Assembly (NCBI GenBank): GCA_001464065.1
Contig: LNDN01000005.1
Location: 1-64,000 of the forward strand
From: Acidobacteria bacterium Ga0077522
GTDB taxonomy: Bacteria > Acidobacteriota > Vicinamibacteria > Vicinamibacterales > Vicinamibacteraceae
Reading direction: 5' to 3'
DNA length: 64,000 bases
Shown: positions 51,507 to 64,000 of the stretch, piece after piece
Numbering within the stretch: position 1 is the stretch's first letter
Layout: each line of letters begins with the position of its first letter
Notes under the pieces: model-generated
Databases searched by the model: none
The model's input: only the letters and a program-made list of their open reading frames with translations
What the model was told of the DNA's origin: nothing
Translations under genes and position numbers: made by a program

Positions 51507-52723
51507 TCCGTCGCGCACACGTCATCGGCCTGGCCTGCTGCCTCGCCCTTGCGCTGCCCGTGGGCGTCGGCGCGCAGGGCCGCGAGCCGCTCAACCTCGA
51601 ACTGGGCGACCCCGCCCGCAAGGCCCGCACGCTGGCGCTGGGCGTCGATCAGATCCACGACACCCACAAGGGCGTCGACCTCTCGACCGACGAGGTCGCG
51701 GCAGCGCTGGCAGACGCCGCGATCGTGCTGGTCGGCGAGGCCCACACCTCCGTCGAATCGCATCGCGTCCAGGCGCAGGTGATTGCCGCCCTGCAGCGAG
51801 CCGGCCGCAAGGTCACGATCGGCCTCGAGATGTTTCCGTACGATGCGCCGACGGCGCCGTTCGACCGCTGGCTGCGCGGCAGCCTCGATGAAGCGGCGCT
51901 GCTCCGCGAGTCGGGCTGGTACGACTACTGGGGCTACCCGTGGGGCTACTACCGGGACATCTTCCTGCTCGCCAAGCAGTACCGCCTGCCCATCCGCGGG
52001 GTGAATGCGCCCCGCGCGGTGGTCGCCATGGTGGGGCGCCGCGGCCTCGCCGGCATCGGGGGCATGGAGCGGGGGCAGCTCGCGCCCACCATCGACACCA
52101 CCAACGAGGAACACAAGCGGTTGTTCGTCGCCTACGTCGGCGGCGACTCGGCCGGGCACGGGGCCGGGATGCCGCCAGAGGTCCTGCAGCGAATGGTGGA
52201 GGCCCAGAGCACGTGGGACGCGACCATGGCCTACCACGCCGTCGAGTTGTCGAAGGAATCGCCCGATCCCAGGGCCGTGGTGGTGGTGCTGGTGGGGAGC
52301 GGGCACGTTGCCTACAACCTCGGCATCGCGCGTCAGGCCCGGGCATACACGGACAAGCGCGTGGCGACGGTGATGCCGATTGCCACCCAGCCCGGCACAC
52401 CGGAGCCGGTCCGCGCCTCCGTCGGCGACATCGTCTGGGGCGTGCCGACCGAAACCTATCCGCGCTTCCCGACGCTCGGCCTGTCCTTCCGCAGCAGCGG
52501 CGAGCAGCCGACGACCGTGCTCATGGTCTCGCCGGGATCGCCCGCCGAGGCGATGGGGTTCAAGGCCGGCGACATCGTGCTGACACTCGACGGCCAGCCG
52601 ATCAGGAAGGACGTCGAGGTGCGCGCCCTGCTCGACCGCAAGCAGTGGGGCGACGCGCTGACCGGGACGGTCACGCGCGGCGCCGAGACCCTGACGCTCA
52701 CCGGCCGCCTGCGACGGCGGTAG
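51503..52723 (+). CDS. ChaN-family (heme-binding uptake, Tiki-like) lipid/secretory protein with C-terminal PDZ domain
   Basis: VLVGEAHTSVESHRVQAQVIAALQRAGRKVTIGLEMFPYDA; VVLVGSGHVAYNLGIARQA; PDZ VLMVSPGSPAEAMGFKAGDIVLTLDGQPI. GTGA overlap with bcp. Confidence 0.85.
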   Translation: MIRRAHVIGLACCLALALPVGVGAQGREPLNLELGDPARKARTLALGVDQIHDTHKGVDLSTDEVAAALADAAIVLVGEAHTSVESHRVQAQVIAALQRAGRKVTIGLEMFPYDAPTAPFDRWLRGSLDEAALLRESGWYDYWGYPWGYYRDIFLLAKQYRLPIRGVNAPRAVVAMVGRRGLAGIGGMERGQLAPTIDTTNEEHKRLFVAYVGGDSAGHGAGMPPEVLQRMVEAQSTWDATMAYHAVELSKESPDPRAVVVVLVGSGHVAYNLGIARQARAYTDKRVATVMPIATQPGTPEPVRASVGDIVWGVPTETYPRFPTLGLSFRSSGEQPTTVLMVSPGSPAEAMGFKAGDIVLTLDGQPIRKDVEVRALLDRKQWGDALTGTVTRGAETLTLTGRLRRR

Positions 52724-54653
52724 GCACGGGCGTCTCGACCATCAACGTGATGGACGATGCCAGGTCGGCCGCGCGATAGACGCGCTGCGTGGCGACCCTG
52801 AAGTCGGCGGGCGTGGCGGTCGGAATCTCCATGAACACCTGGGGATTCCGATCGACGAGCGGGAACCACGAACTCTGCACCTGCACCATCACGCGGTGGC
52901 CGCGGCGAAACGCGTGGTACACGTCGGGCAGGTCATAGGTGATCGCCTCGGGCCGACCAGGGACCATCGGCTCCGGTGTCTCGAAGCTGCGCCGGAACTT
53001 GGCGCGGAATGGCTCCCCGCGCACCAGTTGCTGGTATCCGCCCATCTTCACGGCATCGGCGCGCGCCGGCGCGCCGGGTGGCGCCGCCGGCGTCGGGTAA
53101 TCGTCCGGATACACATCGATCACCTTGACGACGAAGTCGGCGTCGGTGCCGGTGGTCGACACGTGCAGGCGGACCTGAATCGGGCCGGCCACCACGAGGT
53201 CCTGCTCGAGCGGCGGGGTCTGGTAGACCAGCACGTCGGGCCGACGGCTCGCGAAGCGCTGGTCCTCGGTCATGTAGTCCGACGTGAAGCCGCCGGCCAC
53301 GTAGCCGACGTAGGGCACGGGGCGCCTCGGGTCGCTCACGTACTCGTCGTACGACGTCGCCTCCCGTGGGCGCGCCTCGGTGAGGCGGCCGTTGGCGGCC
53401 AGGTGCAGGGTCTTCGCCGTGAGTCCCTTCGGCGGCCAGGCATCGAGCCGGCGGAACTCGTTGAGGCCCGTGAGGAACATCCACGCTTCGGGCACCGGCT
53501 CCTTGCCGTCCTTCAGGTGCGCCATGAAGAAGGGGAACTCGATCTTCTCGCGATAGAACTCCCCCGTGCGGATGGCGAAGTCGAGGTTGCCCAGGTGCTG
53601 GCCGGCGCCACGCGCCCAGCCTCCGTGCGACCACGGGCCCATCACGATCGTGTTGGCGATGCCGGGGTTCTTCCGCTCGACCGCGCGGTAGATGTGGAAG
53701 GGGCCGATGGGGTCCTCGGCGTCGAACCAGCCGCCGACGTTGAGCACCGCGCACCTCACGTTGTCCATGAAGCGCCAGAGCGAGCGCTGCTTCCAGTAGG
53801 CGTCGTATGTCGTGTGGTCGACGATCTCCTGCCAGTAATCGGCCTTCCCCCCGAACAGGTCGGCGTTCATGCGCGCGAGCGGCACCGGCGTACGCAGGAA
53901 GAAGTCGTACATGTCCGGCGTGCCCGGGTCGAAGACGATCGCGGGGCGCGGCGGCGCCGGCGTGTCGCCCCGGGGAGCGAAGCGCGAGTAGAACCCGAAA
54001 TTCGCCCCCAGCATGAACGCGCCGTTGTGGTACACGTCGTCGCCCATGTAGTAGTCCGCCGTCGGCGCCTGTGGCGAGGCGGCCTTCAGCGCCGGGTGCG
54101 AGTCGATGATGCTCGCGGCGACGTGGAAGCCCGGCTGCGAGATGCCGATCATGCCGACGCGCCCGTTGTGGTTGGGCACGTTGGCCAACAGCCAGGCGAT
54201 CGTGTCGTGGGTGTCGGTCCGCTCGTCGACGTCCTTCGGCCCGGTGCCGGCATTGAAGGGGCGCACCTGCTGGAACTGCCCTTCTGACATGTAGCGTCCG
54301 CGCGCATCCTGCCGCACGAAGATGAACCCTTCCTTCTGGAGCGGTTCCGATCCGAGCGCGGCGGGATAGCGGTCGACGCCGTAGGGGGCCACGCTGTAGG
54401 GCGTCCGCGTCAGCAGGAAGGGGTAGGTCCGCGACGCGTCCTTCGGCACGTACACGGCCGTGAACAACCGCACGCCGTCGCGCATCGGCACGAGGTACTC
54501 GTACTTGGTGTACGTCGCGCGCACGAGGTCGGCCCCCGTGGGCGCCGACTGCGCGTGGCCGACGTGCCCGGCCCCCTGCGGCCCGAGCACCAGCGCGGCG
54601 GTCAGCAGGCCCGCCGATGCGGCGCGCCCGATGGTCACGATCCCTCTCGGCAC
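52698..54653 (-). CDS. CocE/NonD family hydrolase (X-Pro dipeptidyl-peptidase S15 / acylase-type)
   Basis: VPMRDGVRLFTAVYVPKDASRTYPFLLTRTPY; GRVGMIGISQPGFHVAASIIDSHPALKAASPQAP; start GTG 54653 with AAGGAG SD. Confidence 0.92.
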   Translation of the reverse strand: MPRGIVTIGRAASAGLLTAALVLGPQGAGHVGHAQSAPTGADLVRATYTKYEYLVPMRDGVRLFTAVYVPKDASRTYPFLLTRTPYSVAPYGVDRYPAALGSEPLQKEGFIFVRQDARGRYMSEGQFQQVRPFNAGTGPKDVDERTDTHDTIAWLLANVPNHNGRVGMIGISQPGFHVAASIIDSHPALKAASPQAPTADYYMGDDVYHNGAFMLGANFGFYSRFAPRGDTPAPPRPAIVFDPGTPDMYDFFLRTPVPLARMNADLFGGKADYWQEIVDHTTYDAYWKQRSLWRFMDNVRCAVLNVGGWFDAEDPIGPFHIYRAVERKNPGIANTIVMGPWSHGGWARGAGQHLGNLDFAIRTGEFYREKIEFPFFMAHLKDGKEPVPEAWMFLTGLNEFRRLDAWPPKGLTAKTLHLAANGRLTEARPREATSYDEYVSDPRRPVPYVGYVAGGFTSDYMTEDQRFASRRPDVLVYQTPPLEQDLVVAGPIQVRLHVSTTGTDADFVVKVIDVYPDDYPTPAAPPGAPARADAVKMGGYQQLVRGEPFRAKFRRSFETPEPMVPGRPEAITYDLPDVYHAFRRGHRVMVQVQSSWFPLVDRNPQVFMEIPTATPADFRVATQRVYRAADLASSITLMVETPVPTAVAGGR

Positions 54654-54712
54654 GGTGGTCTCCTTGCGCCCTGCATCCCCTGGCCTGCCCCTGCCCGTCG
54701 CACGAGACGTGG

Positions 54713-55603
54713 CTACGCGCGGACCAGCCTCACGGTGGCGGTCACCGGGAAGTGGTCCGACGGGTAGCGCTGGTTGCGGTCGGTGCGGACGATCGCGGCG
54801 TCGAGGACGTCCCACTCCGCCGTCGCGAAGATGTGGTCGATCTTCTCGCCGATGACCTGTCCGAACCTGAAGCCGGTGAAGGTGCCGACCGGCGCCGCCT
54901 CCGGGTGCTTGACGCGAAACGTGTCGCGGAACACGCCGCCGTCGAGCATCGACGCGACGGCAGGGTTCTTCTCGCCGGCGTTGAAGTCGCCGGTCACGAT
55001 GACCGGCGCCTGGGGATCACGCGCGGCAATCCGCGCGCGCAGCAACCTCGCCGACTGCTCGCGCGACGGCTGCGACTGATGATCGAGGTGCACGTTGTAG
55101 ACGGACAGCGGCTGCCCGTCCGGCGAGACGAACTGCGCCCACGTGCAGATGCGGGTGATGCTGTTGCCCCAGCTCTTCGAGGCGACGCGGTCTGGCGTGT
55201 CCGAGAACCAGAAGGTGTCGCTGCGGCTCACCGACAGCGCGGCCGTCCGGTAGAGGAGGCAGGAGTACTCGCCCGCCCGGATGCCGTTGTCGCGCCCGAC
55301 GCCGACCATCGCGTATCCCGGCAGGGCCTGCAGGATGAAGGCCAGCTGCGGATACAGCGCCTCCTGGACGCCGAGGACGTCGGGCGCCTCCGCGCGCAGC
55401 ACGTCCACCAGGAAGTCCTTGCGCCGGTCCCAGTGGTTGTCGCCGTCGTTGGCGGTGCCATAGCGGATGTTGAAGGTCATCACCTTCAGCGCCAGCCCCG
55501 AGGCCGGCGCTGCCGCCTGGGCCGCCTGCGCCACCACCGATGGCGCAGCCGCGCACGCGCCGATCGTGGCCGCGCAGGCCTGGACGAATGCCCGTCTCTT
55601 CAT
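54713..55603 (-). CDS. Endonuclease/exonuclease/phosphatase family protein (secreted)
   Basis: LKVMTFNIRYGTANDGDNHWDRRKDFLVDVLRAEAPDVLGVQEAL; VIVTGDFNAGEKNPAV; YPSDHFPVTATV; RR-containing signal peptide MKRRAFVQACAATIG. Confidence 0.93.
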   Translation of the reverse strand: MKRRAFVQACAATIGACAAAPSVVAQAAQAAAPASGLALKVMTFNIRYGTANDGDNHWDRRKDFLVDVLRAEAPDVLGVQEALYPQLAFILQALPGYAMVGVGRDNGIRAGEYSCLLYRTAALSVSRSDTFWFSDTPDRVASKSWGNSITRICTWAQFVSPDGQPLSVYNVHLDHQSQPSREQSARLLRARIAARDPQAPVIVTGDFNAGEKNPAVASMLDGGVFRDTFRVKHPEAAPVGTFTGFRFGQVIGEKIDHIFATAEWDVLDAAIVRTDRNQRYPSDHFPVTATVRLVRA

Positions 55604-56682
55604 GCGATCCACTCCCGTCCGGCCCAATGCGCCCGGAGGAACTCGACGACGTTGCGCCACCGGAAGCGCTCCAGGTCATCGTCGGTGAACCCGCGCGCCC
55701 CGAGCACGTCGCACAGGCGATGCAGGTCGGCGATGGTGTCGATCTCGACCGGCGTCTGCTCCGTGCCGAACGCGCCGTCGAGGTCCGAGCCGATGCACAC
55801 GTGGGCCGTGGAGCCCGCGAGGTCGCAGATATGGACGACGTGGTCGGCGAGCCGCTCGAAGGTGCACGACATCGACTGCGGCGTCGACGTGCCGCGCACC
55901 CAGCCGGGCACGATCATCCACGCATCGCACGACGCCCCGATGACGGCGCCGCGCTTGACGATCGCCCGAATCTGATCGTCGGGCAGCTGTCGCTGATCGG
56001 GGACCAGCGTTCTCACGTTGTGATGGCTGGCCCACACGGCGCCGCCGAACAGGTCGAGGGCCTGCCAGAGGCTGTCGTCGCTCAGGTGGGTGACGTCGAG
56101 GATGACGCCCAGCCGTTCCATGGCGGCGAGCAGCGCTGGCCCCTGCGGCTCGAGCGGTCCGGTGGTGTGCGTGCCGGGGGCGTACCGTCCGGGTCCGTAG
56201 TGTGCCGGCCCGACGGCGCGCAGGCCGTCGCGCACGGCCTGCTCCAGGTACTCGATGGTGACCAGCGAATCGGCGCCCTCGAGACTGCGGATGTAGCCGA
56301 TGGGCGCGCGCGGTGGCGGGTCCTGCCACAGGGCGAGATGCGCGTCGAGCGAGGCGAGGTCGGTGACCGCGACCATCTCGCCCGCCTTCTCCATCTCGCG
56401 GTACCAGGCCAGCTGTCCCTGCGTCTGGGCCCAGGCCTGCTCGGCCGAGTGCCACCCGGGCAGCGGGTTGTCTGGCGCGACAGAGCGGGCGATCTGCGTG
56501 GCGACGACCAGGCCGATGCGCGCACGGCGCATCTCCGGAAAGGACACCGTGCCACGGCCGCGGTCGGGCCGATCGGTGAGCCCCGCTTCACGGGCCCGGA
56601 TGGCCGCGACCGGCTCGCGCAGGTCGCGGTTCCACTCGAGCGCGTTCATGGACAGGTCCAGATGCGCGTCGACGACCAGCAT
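55600..56682 (-). CDS. Membrane dipeptidase (renal dipeptidase, peptidase M19)
   Basis: LVVDAHLDLSMNALEWNRD; GVILDVTHLSDDSLWQALDLFGGAVWASHHNVRTLVPDQRQL; HVCIGSDLDGAFG. Confidence 0.92.
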   Translation of the reverse strand: MLVVDAHLDLSMNALEWNRDLREPVAAIRAREAGLTDRPDRGRGTVSFPEMRRARIGLVVATQIARSVAPDNPLPGWHSAEQAWAQTQGQLAWYREMEKAGEMVAVTDLASLDAHLALWQDPPPRAPIGYIRSLEGADSLVTIEYLEQAVRDGLRAVGPAHYGPGRYAPGTHTTGPLEPQGPALLAAMERLGVILDVTHLSDDSLWQALDLFGGAVWASHHNVRTLVPDQRQLPDDQIRAIVKRGAVIGASCDAWMIVPGWVRGTSTPQSMSCTFERLADHVVHICDLAGSTAHVCIGSDLDGAFGTEQTPVEIDTIADLHRLCDVLGARGFTDDDLERFRWRNVVEFLRAHWAGREWIA

Positions 56683-57153
56683 CTAGACGTCCTTCAGCCG
56701 GAACAGCGCCTCGATCTCCACCGGGATGTTGCCCGGCAGCGAGCCCATGCCCACCGCGCTGCGCACGCCCACGCCGAGGTCTTCGCCCCAGATGGCCGAG
56801 AACATCTCGCTGCACCCGTTGATGACGAAGGGATGCCGATCGAACTCCGGCGTCGCCCACACCATGCCGAGGACCTTGACGACGCGATGGATGCGGTCGA
56901 GCGACCCGACCGTGGCCCTGATCGTGGCGAGCATCGACAACCCGACCTGGCGCGCCGCCAGCTTGGCCTCGTCGGCCGTCAGGTCCTGCCCCACCTTGCC
57001 GACGATCATCGAGCCATCGGTCTTCATCGTGCCGTGACCGGACACGTACAGATAGGGGCCCTCGATCAGGGCGGGCTTGTAGACCCCCATCGGCTTGGGC
57101 GCGGGCGGGAGGTCGAGGCCGAGAGCAGCGAAGCGTTCTTCTGGTGTGGACAT
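56683..57153 (-). CDS. RidA family protein (YjgF/YER057c/UK114)
   Basis: MSTPEERFAALGLDLPPAPKPMGVYKPALIEGPYLYVSGHGTMKTDGSMIVGKVGQDLTADEAKLAARQVGLSMLATI. Confidence 0.88.
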   Translation of the reverse strand: MSTPEERFAALGLDLPPAPKPMGVYKPALIEGPYLYVSGHGTMKTDGSMIVGKVGQDLTADEAKLAARQVGLSMLATIRATVGSLDRIHRVVKVLGMVWATPEFDRHPFVINGCSEMFSAIWGEDLGVGVRSAVGMGSLPGNIPVEIEALFRLKDV

Positions 57154-57160
57154 GTCGGAG

Positions 57161-57195
57161 GAATCGGGAGTCGGGAAGCGGGCGTCGGGAAGCGA
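57161..57195 (+). repeat. Degenerate heptanucleotide array GAnTCGG, 5 units
   Basis: GAATCGG GAGTCGG GAAGCGG GCGTCGG GAAGCGA. Confidence 0.88.
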
Positions 57196-57203
57196 CGATG
57201 GTC

Positions 57204-57236
57204 GTAGCCGTCGACCTTCAGGTCGACGGTCAGTGA
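57204..57236 (-). repeat. 33-bp palindromic repeat, copy 2
   Basis: Reverse strand TCACTGACCGTCGACCTGAAGGTCGACGGCTAC, identical to 4545-4577; core CCGTCGACCT-GA-AGGTCGACGG. Confidence 0.95.
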
Positions 57237-57243
57237 TGTTCGC

Positions 57244-58554
57244 CTATATCCATACATCGAGCAGCAGCACGCCCGCGAGGCCGACGATGGCGACAATCGA
57301 CTCCATCGCGGTCCACGTCTGCAACGTCTCGGCCACGGACAGGTTGAAATACTCCTTGAACAGCCAGAAGGCGCCGTCGTTGATGTGCGACAGCATCAGG
57401 CTGCCGGCGCCAATCGACAACACCATCAGGTTCGGATCCGCCGCGCCGCTCGCGACCAGAGGCGCCACGAAGCCCGCCGTGGTGAGCCCGGCGACGGTGG
57501 CCGACCCGACGCAGACGCGGACGAGGGCCGCCATCGCCCACGCCAGCACCAGGGGCGGCGCGTGCAGGCGCGACAGCGCCGCCGCGATGGCGGTGCTCGA
57601 CCCGGCGTCCGTGAGCACCTGCTTGAATGCGCCGGCGCCGCCGACGACGAGCATCACGAGGGCCACGTCGGAGGCGGCCCGTTCGCACCAGCCCGTGATG
57701 GTCTCCATCGAGGCGCCGCTGCGCAACCCCAGCAGGCCGATGGCCACCACCACCGCCACGAGCATGGCCATGGACGGGTCACCGATCGCACGCACGACCT
57801 GACCGATCACCCCGTCGGAGACGCGTGAGGCCAGCACCGACCCGACGCCGAGCATCACCACCGGCAGCAGCGCGGTCGTGAGACTGGCCGACAGCGACGG
57901 CAGTGTCGCCTCGTCACGCAGGGCCGGCACGAACGTCGACAGGGGGGGGCGATCGATGCGCGGCATGAACCGCGTGTAGACCGGGCCAGCGAGGATGATG
58001 GCCGGGATGGCGATGACGATGCCGTACAGCAGCGTCTGCCCCATGTTGGCGTTGAACTGCTGCACCAGCGCGGCGGGGGCCGGATGGGGCGGCAGGTACC
58101 CGTGCGTCACCGAGAGCGCGGCCAGCATCGGCAGCCCCACCCAGACCGGCGGCACCTTGTACTGCGCGGCGACGCTGAAGATCAGCGGAATGACCAGCAC
58201 GAACCCGACCGAATAGAACAGCGGCAGGCCGACGATGAAGCCGGTGACCATGAGCGCCCACTGCACGCGGCTCGGTCCGCTGAGGCGCATCAGGCTCATC
58301 GCGATGCGCTGGGCCGCGCCGCTCTCCGCGACGATCTTGCCGAGCATGGCGCCGAGGCCGATCACCAGCAGCAGGGAGCCGAGCGTGTCGCCGAGGCCCT
58401 TCTGGATGGCCGCCGACACCTGCAGCGGCGTCAGCCCCGAGGCCAGACCGACGCCGATGCAGACCAGGAGAAAGGCCAGGAACGGCGTCAGGCGGGCGCC
58501 GGCGATCAGCAGGACGAGGGCGACGATGCCGGCCAGGGCGATGGCGAGGAGCAT
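57244..58554 (-). CDS. GntP family permease (gluconate/D-serine type)
   Basis: LTPFLAFLLVCIGVGLASGLTP; GLGDTLGSLLLVIGLGAMLGKIVAESGAAQRIA; LSIGAGSLMLSHINDGAFWLFKEYFNLSV. Confidence 0.94.
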   Translation of the reverse strand: MLLAIALAGIVALVLLIAGARLTPFLAFLLVCIGVGLASGLTPLQVSAAIQKGLGDTLGSLLLVIGLGAMLGKIVAESGAAQRIAMSLMRLSGPSRVQWALMVTGFIVGLPLFYSVGFVLVIPLIFSVAAQYKVPPVWVGLPMLAALSVTHGYLPPHPAPAALVQQFNANMGQTLLYGIVIAIPAIILAGPVYTRFMPRIDRPPLSTFVPALRDEATLPSLSASLTTALLPVVMLGVGSVLASRVSDGVIGQVVRAIGDPSMAMLVAVVVAIGLLGLRSGASMETITGWCERAASDVALVMLVVGGAGAFKQVLTDAGSSTAIAAALSRLHAPPLVLAWAMAALVRVCVGSATVAGLTTAGFVAPLVASGAADPNLMVLSIGAGSLMLSHINDGAFWLFKEYFNLSVAETLQTWTAMESIVAIVGLAGVLLLDVWI

Positions 58555-58717: not shown

Positions 58718-60223
<1,506 letters not shown>

Positions 60224-60266
60224 GCGTTTGGCTCCTTGGCTTCGCGGCACCGCGCCGCGTCGTACG

Positions 60267-60289
60267 GCATCGCGAACCAGGCGCGATGC
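60267..60289. other. Perfect 8-bp stem-loop in the ArsR-MT/ahcY intergenic gap
   Basis: GCATCGCG-AACCAGG-CGCGATGC. Confidence 0.6.
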
Positions 60290-60322
60290 GATTCTCGTGA
60301 GGGCAATGGCGGCGAGTGCGCC

Positions 60323-61294
60323 CTACCTGCCCGTGACTGACAATGAAGACGCACCCGCGGTGGCTCGGGCGACGAACAAGGCCGGGCCACGCACACCCGG
60401 CACCGGGGACATCGGCACCACCCGCGCCCCGCTGAAGCCAGCCCCGGTCAGGAGCCGGCTGACGTCGACCTCGGAGAACCCGAGCCAGACGTGTCCCATC
60501 TGGCCACGATACTCCTCGCGGTCGTGTGGCTGCATGTCGATGACGAGCAACCGCCCGTCCGCCCTGAGGACCCGGCGCGCCTCCTTGAGCACGGCCGTCG
60601 GATCGCCCAGGTGATGCAGCACGAGGACCAGCAGCGCGAGGTCCGCGGTGCCACTCGCCACCGGCACTGCTTCCAGCGTGCCTTCCCGGACCTCGACGTT
60701 GGGCAGGGCCCCGAGGCGGGCCCGCGCGGCCGTGAGCATCTCGGCCGACGCGTCGACGGCCACGACGTGCCGGACGAACGGCGCCAGCGCGGCCGACGTC
60801 CGTCCCGTGCCGCAGCCGAGGTCCGCCACGGTCCACGTCGGTTCGCACGCCGCCAGCAGGCCATCGAGATGGAAGCTGCTGCCGTAGAGCTCGTCGCGCA
60901 GCGCATCCCACTCCCCGGCCGCGCGGGAGAAGAAGGCGGCCGATTCCGAACGGCGGTCGGCCAGCACCCGAGTCAGGCGCATCCGGTCCTGCGCCACGGC
61001 CGGCATCGTGATCAGCTGGGCCTTGACCACGCGCCACAGGTCGGCCGAGTGCTCGTCGAGCGCGTCGGTGACGAGCGAGTAGAGTCGGCTCGTCCCTTCG
61101 CGTCGCACCTGGGCCCAGCCGCCATCCATCAGCGTCTTGAGGTGCCGACTGATCGTCGACTGCGGCAGTTGCAGGATGTCGCACAGCTCGCCCACCGCCA
61201 AGGTCTGCCCCTCGAGCACGAGCAGCAGGCGGGCCCGCAGGGGGTCCCCGAGAACGTTGAGGTGCGCCAGGACTGGCGAAGCGAGTTGATTCAT
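60323..61294 (-). CDS. ArsR-family transcriptional regulator fused to SAM-dependent methyltransferase
   Basis: N-terminal wHTH LNVLGDPLRARLLLVLEGQTLAVGELCDILQLPQSTISRHLKTLMDGGWAQVRREGTSRLYSL; C-terminal VADLGCGTGRTSAALAPFVRHVVAVDASAEML methyltransferase motif I. Confidence 0.93.
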   Translation of the reverse strand: MNQLASPVLAHLNVLGDPLRARLLLVLEGQTLAVGELCDILQLPQSTISRHLKTLMDGGWAQVRREGTSRLYSLVTDALDEHSADLWRVVKAQLITMPAVAQDRMRLTRVLADRRSESAAFFSRAAGEWDALRDELYGSSFHLDGLLAACEPTWTVADLGCGTGRTSAALAPFVRHVVAVDASAEMLTAARARLGALPNVEVREGTLEAVPVASGTADLALLVLVLHHLGDPTAVLKEARRVLRADGRLLVIDMQPHDREEYRGQMGHVWLGFSEVDVSRLLTGAGFSGARVVPMSPVPGVRGPALFVARATAGASSLSVTGR

Positions 61295-61300
61295 CCCTCT

Positions 61301-61347
61301 ATCCGGATTGAAGTCTACACAGATGAACTCCTTCCGTCAAGCCGGAT
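61301..61347 (-). promoter_or_regulatory. Candidate sigma-70 promoter with flanking CCGGAT operators for the ArsR-methyltransferase gene
   Basis: Reverse strand TTGACG (61340-61335) - 17 bp - TAGACT (61317-61312); inverted elements ATCCGGATTGA (61301-61311) and TCAAGCCGGAT (61337-61347). Confidence 0.75.
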
Positions 61348-61357
61348 GAACACACGA

Positions 61358-61388
61358 ACGGCCGGAGGGCACCGCGCCCCCCGGCCGT
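61358..61388 (-). terminator. Stem-loop after metH
   Basis: ACGGCCGGAGGGCACCGCGCCCCCCGGCCGT: 8-bp stem plus 3 pairs; weak T tail on the reverse strand. Confidence 0.5.
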
Positions 61389-61456
61389 CGAGACGGCGTC
61401 GAGCGCGCGCCGCGTCAGCGGCGGCGCCGGAACCGGCACACTGCGGTCACGCGCCT

Positions 61457-64000
<2,544 letters not shown>

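Follow-up and report, generated by a model that had tools for sequence, protein, structure and literature searches.

We identified in the window, by which we mean the whole 64,000-nucleotide stretch of DNA analysed here, an ArsR-methyltransferase fusion, hereafter regulator A, that is probably a SahR-type autorepressor of the A-ahcY operon, released from its operator when SAH fills its methyltransferase-fold domain. We put the probability of this reading at roughly 70%. The architecture of the protein, a palindromic site at the start of its gene and the adjacency to ahcY are all conserved, and the site is all but confined to this one operon, while a paralogous regulator with an operator of its own stands before metH. 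The features are collected in Table 1.

Table 1. Features of the A-ahcY region, numbered as in the window
Feature	Position	Strand	Basis
ahcY, adenosylhomocysteinase, second gene of the A-ahcY unit	58718..60223	-	TIGR00936 over cut-off; adjacency conserved
Inverted repeat of hairpin type, GCATCGCG-N7-CGCGATGC, in the A-ahcY gap	60267..60289	-	Read from sequence
Regulator A, ArsR-type winged HTH and class I methyltransferase-fold fusion, 323 aa	60323..61294	-	Pfam, AlphaFold2, orthologs
Methyltransferase-fold domain of A, presumed SAM/SAH-binding, residues ~153-293	60416..60838	-	Pfam, alignment, model
ArsR winged helix-turn-helix domain of A, residues ~15-72	61079..61252	-	HTH_5; model secondary structure
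Predicted operator O1, ATCCGGATAGAGGGAT, consensus ATCCG-N6-CGGAT, 16 bp	61293..61308	-	Conservation in the order and in other phyla
-10, TAGACT	61312..61317	-	Sequence scan; TAnnnT-like at the same place in most orthologs
Operator-like O2, ATCCGGCTTGACGGAA, over the -35	61332..61347	-	One mismatch to consensus; 3/5 genus members
-35, TTGACG	61335..61340	-	Sequence scan; most orthologs have TTGAC here
metH, B12-dependent methionine synthase, 5' part outside the window	61457..64000	-	TIGR02082 over cut-off

The initial annotation had described an ArsR-methyltransferase fusion starting at the ATG at 61294, and Pfam and the sequence bore out both the fusion and every coordinate given for it. HTH_5 was matched at residues 17-58 (E = 5.6e-11) and Methyltransf_11 at residues 158-250 (E = 2.4e-23), and the latter domain has an intact DxGxGxG motif (D158-G164) together with D181, with D158, G160, G162, G164 and D181 kept across the clade A alignments. 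Fold comparison of an AlphaFold2 model of regulator A (pLDDT 89) returned a SAM/SAH-binding methyltransferase fold. The closest PDB structures, by sequence and by fold, were methyltransferases or ArsR proteins, each separately, and none among the PDB matches listed had the two-domain ArsR-methyltransferase layout. Orthologs of A were present in 28 of 40 related genomes, leaving 12 genomes without it. Just two cysteines are near-invariant in clade A: C38, which belongs to the HTH, and C161, which falls within motif I. Cys38 (codon 61181-61183), which occupies the ELC position in the HTH, is missing from paralog B and from rhizobial SahR; its conservation was partly selected by our peptide search pattern, yet it is invariant in an independent 20-member alignment, and a thiol role for it is possible.

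As the initial annotation had proposed, TTGACG-17-TAGACT precedes the gene; it proved to be the sole sigma-70-like site in 60200-61500, where shuffles give 0.0. The palindrome ATCCGGAT that had been noted downstream of it does lie at 61301-61308, 3 bp after the -10, but it makes up only the left-hand portion of a longer site of 16 bp, ATCCG-N6-CGGAT (O1), which begins at that same distance past the -10, overlaps the region where transcription starts and shares two bases, A and T, with the start codon. In the window O1 has one mismatch to the consensus, located in the right arm that runs into the ATG, and in some genus members it has two. The initial annotation had staked its reading on the recurrence of the CCGGAT elements upstream of orthologs, and phylogenetic footprinting found them there: O1, with at most one mismatch, was present in 26 of 27 order orthologs, compared with a mean of 0.26 and a maximum of 3 in dinucleotide shuffles. 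Across these 27 orthologs, the site lies about 3 bp after the -10 and ends at or near the start codon. The element TCAAGCCGGAT over the -35 (61337-61347) also agrees with the reverse complement of 61301-61311 in 10 of its 11 letters, just as had been claimed; the inverted pair, however, is not what is conserved, since O2 is kept in three of the five genus members and not outside the genus, and the spacer between O2 and O1 has diverged. O1, as a predicted operator, is the solid, conserved feature, whereas O2 is plausibly a lineage-specific second copy of it and possibly a chance element. In a separate scan of contig positions 57000-73000, no Rfam match to a SAM/SAH riboswitch reached the gathering score, and riboswitch control of the region was rejected on this ground.

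The distribution of the exact motif, ATCCGGATNNACGGAT, revealed a narrow specificity. In the 40 related genomes it had a single match in each of 19, all 19 directly before A, and it had none in the 12 genomes that lack A. A search of 199 phylum genomes gave 22 matches, 14 of them before A-ahcY (6 new ones besides 8 known from the order) and 8 elsewhere, the latter being about the number expected by chance (~6 by base counting, from 199 x ~4 Mb x 2 strands / 4^14). The initial annotation had looked to such a scan for sites upstream of metH, metK, metF and ahcY; the ahcY operon does carry the A site, but the metK and metF loci inspected had neither the A nor the B operator, and metH has the different operator of paralog B. 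A wider regulon of A was rejected because the inspected metK and metF loci are siteless and exact sites in the order occur only at A-ahcY.

The placement of metH upstream and ahcY downstream of A, already given by the initial annotation, held up against TIGR02082 and TIGR00936, all three genes being on the minus strand. Within the window's order, Vicinamibacterales according to record titles, ahcY follows A in every genome whose contig reaches that far. We also searched named genomes with the peptide patterns MGHVWLGF and E[LI]Cx[VI]LQLPQ, which yielded 253 relatives, and kept the best 80, loci thus picked by peptide and not by DNA, 13 of which repeat genomes from the 40-genome set. Among these best 80 of 253, ahcY was directly downstream in 80/80, and the operator was perfect in 67 (within 90 bp before the expected start) and had one mismatch in 12, while in the last locus (L187) a perfect operator sits a little further upstream. 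Their record titles name Acidobacteriota, Myxococcota, including two cultured Pyxidicoccus species, Gemmatimonadota, Chloroflexota, Latescibacterota and Planctomycetota. Certain of these titles seem to be wrong: the 'Cyanobacteria' locus L185 is the same gene as that of genome G030 of the window's order, and the 'Acidimicrobiia' locus L207 groups with this order in the tree. In several other genomes the gap between A and ahcY holds hairpin-like repeats different from the one in Table 1, and such repeats perhaps set the regulator-to-enzyme ratio. Downstream of ahcY, on the same strand (52698-58554), we noted by eye ORFs resembling a GntP-type permease, a RidA-like protein, a membrane dipeptidase, an endonuclease/phosphatase and a CocE-type peptidase.

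A second ArsR-methyltransferase, paralog B, directly precedes metH just outside the window (G000:C5:65143-66123, equal to L031:8144-9124) and is 35% identical to A in this genome. Within L031:8135-9124, its operator is followed immediately by its GTG start, while at the other end its stop and the start codon of metH overlap. The two paralogs share their architecture and have an autoregulatory-type site over the promoter, but B stands before metH with a 24-bp palindromic operator (consensus ATCnATnnATnTAGATTnATnGAT) covering the -10, whereas A stands before ahcY with its 16-bp site. Genome-wide matches to the ATCnATnnATnTAGATTnATnGAT site were found almost only before B-metH. Each pair, B-metH and A-ahcY, stays intact also in genomes where the two are widely separated on the chromosome, and the same split, A-ahcY plus a B-like protein before metH, occurs in Pyxidicoccus (Myxococcota). 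In one genome without A (G010; L079, G010:C52:3700-7500), B is divergent from ahcY with a B site in the shared gap, an arrangement which suggests that B can take over there and may control both metH and ahcY.

Taken as a mechanism, these arrangements would work as follows. A dimer of A would bind ATCCG-N6-CGGAT through its ArsR winged helix and repress A-ahcY; because the site begins about 3 bp past the -10 and reaches as far as the start codon, A on O1 would block open-complex formation or promoter escape, and such coverage of the start region is typical of a repressor. The methyltransferase-fold domain would be the sensor, with catalysis dispensable: accumulating SAH would bind there, SAH-bound A would leave the operator, A-ahcY would be transcribed, and AhcY would remove SAH and so close the loop. 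B may act likewise on metH through its different operator, by which control of the SAM cycle would be split between two local regulators. The autoregulated SAM-cycle switch comparable to SahR that the initial annotation had envisaged gains support from O1 conservation and ahcY linkage, both read from sequence.

The two paralogs may also be sensors whose ligands are not the same: A-ahcY might answer to SAH, say, and B-metH to SAM or some other intermediate. This idea is tentative, but if it is true, a single duplicated protein acting through two separate operators lets the cell monitor the methylation index from both sides, and the split between an ahcY-dedicated and a metH-dedicated regulator raises the testable question of whether proteins of the same architecture have different ligands. 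As for A itself, the strongest rival on its effector keeps the same operator and operon but replaces SAH by another cycle metabolite, with SAM as a co-repressor, or with the SAM/SAH ratio, adenosine or homocysteine being read. Many relatives with this fold bind SAM in addition to SAH, the SahR-like SamR was left undecided between SAM and SAH (PMC4239095), and two paralogs with the separate targets ahcY and metH would fit two signals. We nevertheless consider this rather unlikely, for the sole gene predicted to be served by A encodes the SAH-removing enzyme, the inspected metK and metF loci, which would be expected targets of a SAM signal, carry no site, and in the characterised relative, SahR of Desulfovibrio, the response is to SAH, according to work cited in PMC4239095 and PMC8877191.

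On function, the strongest rival to a pure SAH sensor is a working methyltransferase, since ArsRM of Brevundimonas sp. M20, a related fusion whose gene belongs to a met operon, is reported to methylate As(III) and in EMSA to bind the promoter of its own gene (PMC10190100); for the same reason the methyltransferase domain of A may be more than a sensor. A would then be a bifunctional enzyme-regulator which methylates arsenite or another acceptor and whose regulation is tied to turnover, and its intact SAM-binding motifs agree with this. However, no ars genes were recognised beside A, whose neighbours are ahcY and metH, and the conserved coupling to ahcY would be left unexplained. ArsM enzymes have typical Cys sets and arsenic-sensing ArsR proteins a CxC; because only C38 and C161 are near-invariant in A, both are missing from it, and we regard the bifunctional reading as improbable. 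The weakest reading, that the CCGGAT elements arose by chance or simply repeat promoter sequence, with no regulatory meaning, would suit the ~180 one-mismatch occurrences of ATCCG-N6-CGGAT in this 5.4-Mb genome, a pattern too loose for scanning a genome, as well as O2, which partly coincides with the -35 and is confined to the genus, but it is excluded for O1 by conservation and exclusive genomic position and is overall hardly credible.

To return to the proposed SAH-released autorepressor, the literature searched offered no comparable regulator of the SAM cycle from outside the Proteobacteria; an operator, a target and a regulator are now predicted for Acidobacteriota, Myxococcota, cultured Pyxidicoccus included, Gemmatimonadota and others. 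As a naturally insulated sensor with one predicted site and one operon, A could serve as a SAH biosensor.

Among the closest known systems is SahR of Proteobacteria (Novichkov et al. 2014, as cited in PMC4239095 and PMC8877191), a SAH-responsive ArsR regulator with a core regulon of sahR, ahcY, metH, metF and metK (PMC4239095), whose deletion in Ensifer raises the expression of sahR itself (PMC8877191). A resembles it in joining an ArsR HTH to a methyltransferase-fold domain, in its linkage to SAM-cycle genes and in the palindromic site just before its own start codon. The initial annotation had held that the enzyme fusion sets A apart, but the SahR proteins of S. meliloti and R. leguminosarum (L146, L151), encoded beside metF, have the same HTH_5 plus Methyltransf_11 architecture, and the S. 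meliloti gene, at 1023 bp, has the length printed for Ensifer sahR in PMC8877191. Alignment columns D-G-G-G, H257 and LGF are common to A, B, the rhizobial and the Leptospira proteins. On plasmid p1 of Leptospira interrogans (L150, 3947-8852), an ArsR-methyltransferase fusion with a GATATCAAGATATCTTGATATC palindrome just before its start is followed by ahcY and metH. The motif, too, had been described as unlike that of SahR. This stands in relation to the rhizobial palindrome, which is ATAAAGATATCTTTAT-like and also lies just before the start codon but differs from ATCCG-N6-CGGAT; it does not stand in relation to the ATC-10nt-GAT consensus common to gamma-proteobacterial SahR and SamR (PMC4239095), which the A operator fits as ATC-CGGATnnACG-GAT. 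In a maximum-likelihood tree whose SahR proteins were alphaproteobacterial, moreover, A, B and these SahR proteins formed three separate, strongly supported groups, and A is 32% identical to S. meliloti SahR. Since A thus forms a clade apart from alphaproteobacterial SahR, SAH sensing is ascribed to it by analogy with relatives at ~32-36% identity. The predicted regulon of A is likewise limited to its own gene and ahcY, unlike the SahR core. Because of predicted regulon and clade, we do not file A as a plain SahR member.

SamR of Xanthomonadales, a SahR-like ArsR protein, adjoins metH genes and has a 24-bp palindrome with ATC-10nt-GAT. It is paralog B, standing before metH with an operator of 24 bp, that resembles SamR, whereas A would serve ahcY, and a large methionine regulon of the SamR type (metB, metE, metF, metK) was not seen, the inspected metK and metF loci being devoid of an operator. 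ArsRM of Brevundimonas is, like A, an ArsR-methyltransferase fusion of ~320 aa, there encoded by the first gene of a met operon; it differs in its operator, CTTTATATAAAG, in an operon of metF/metH type instead of ahcY and in the claimed arsenite methylation, and neither the HTH helix nor the methyltransferase domain of A has a cysteine set for As(III). In summary, our comparisons at the sequence level suggest that A works like SahR, from which it would differ in clade, in operator, in its one-operon regulon and in a SAM-cycle control that is split over two regulators.
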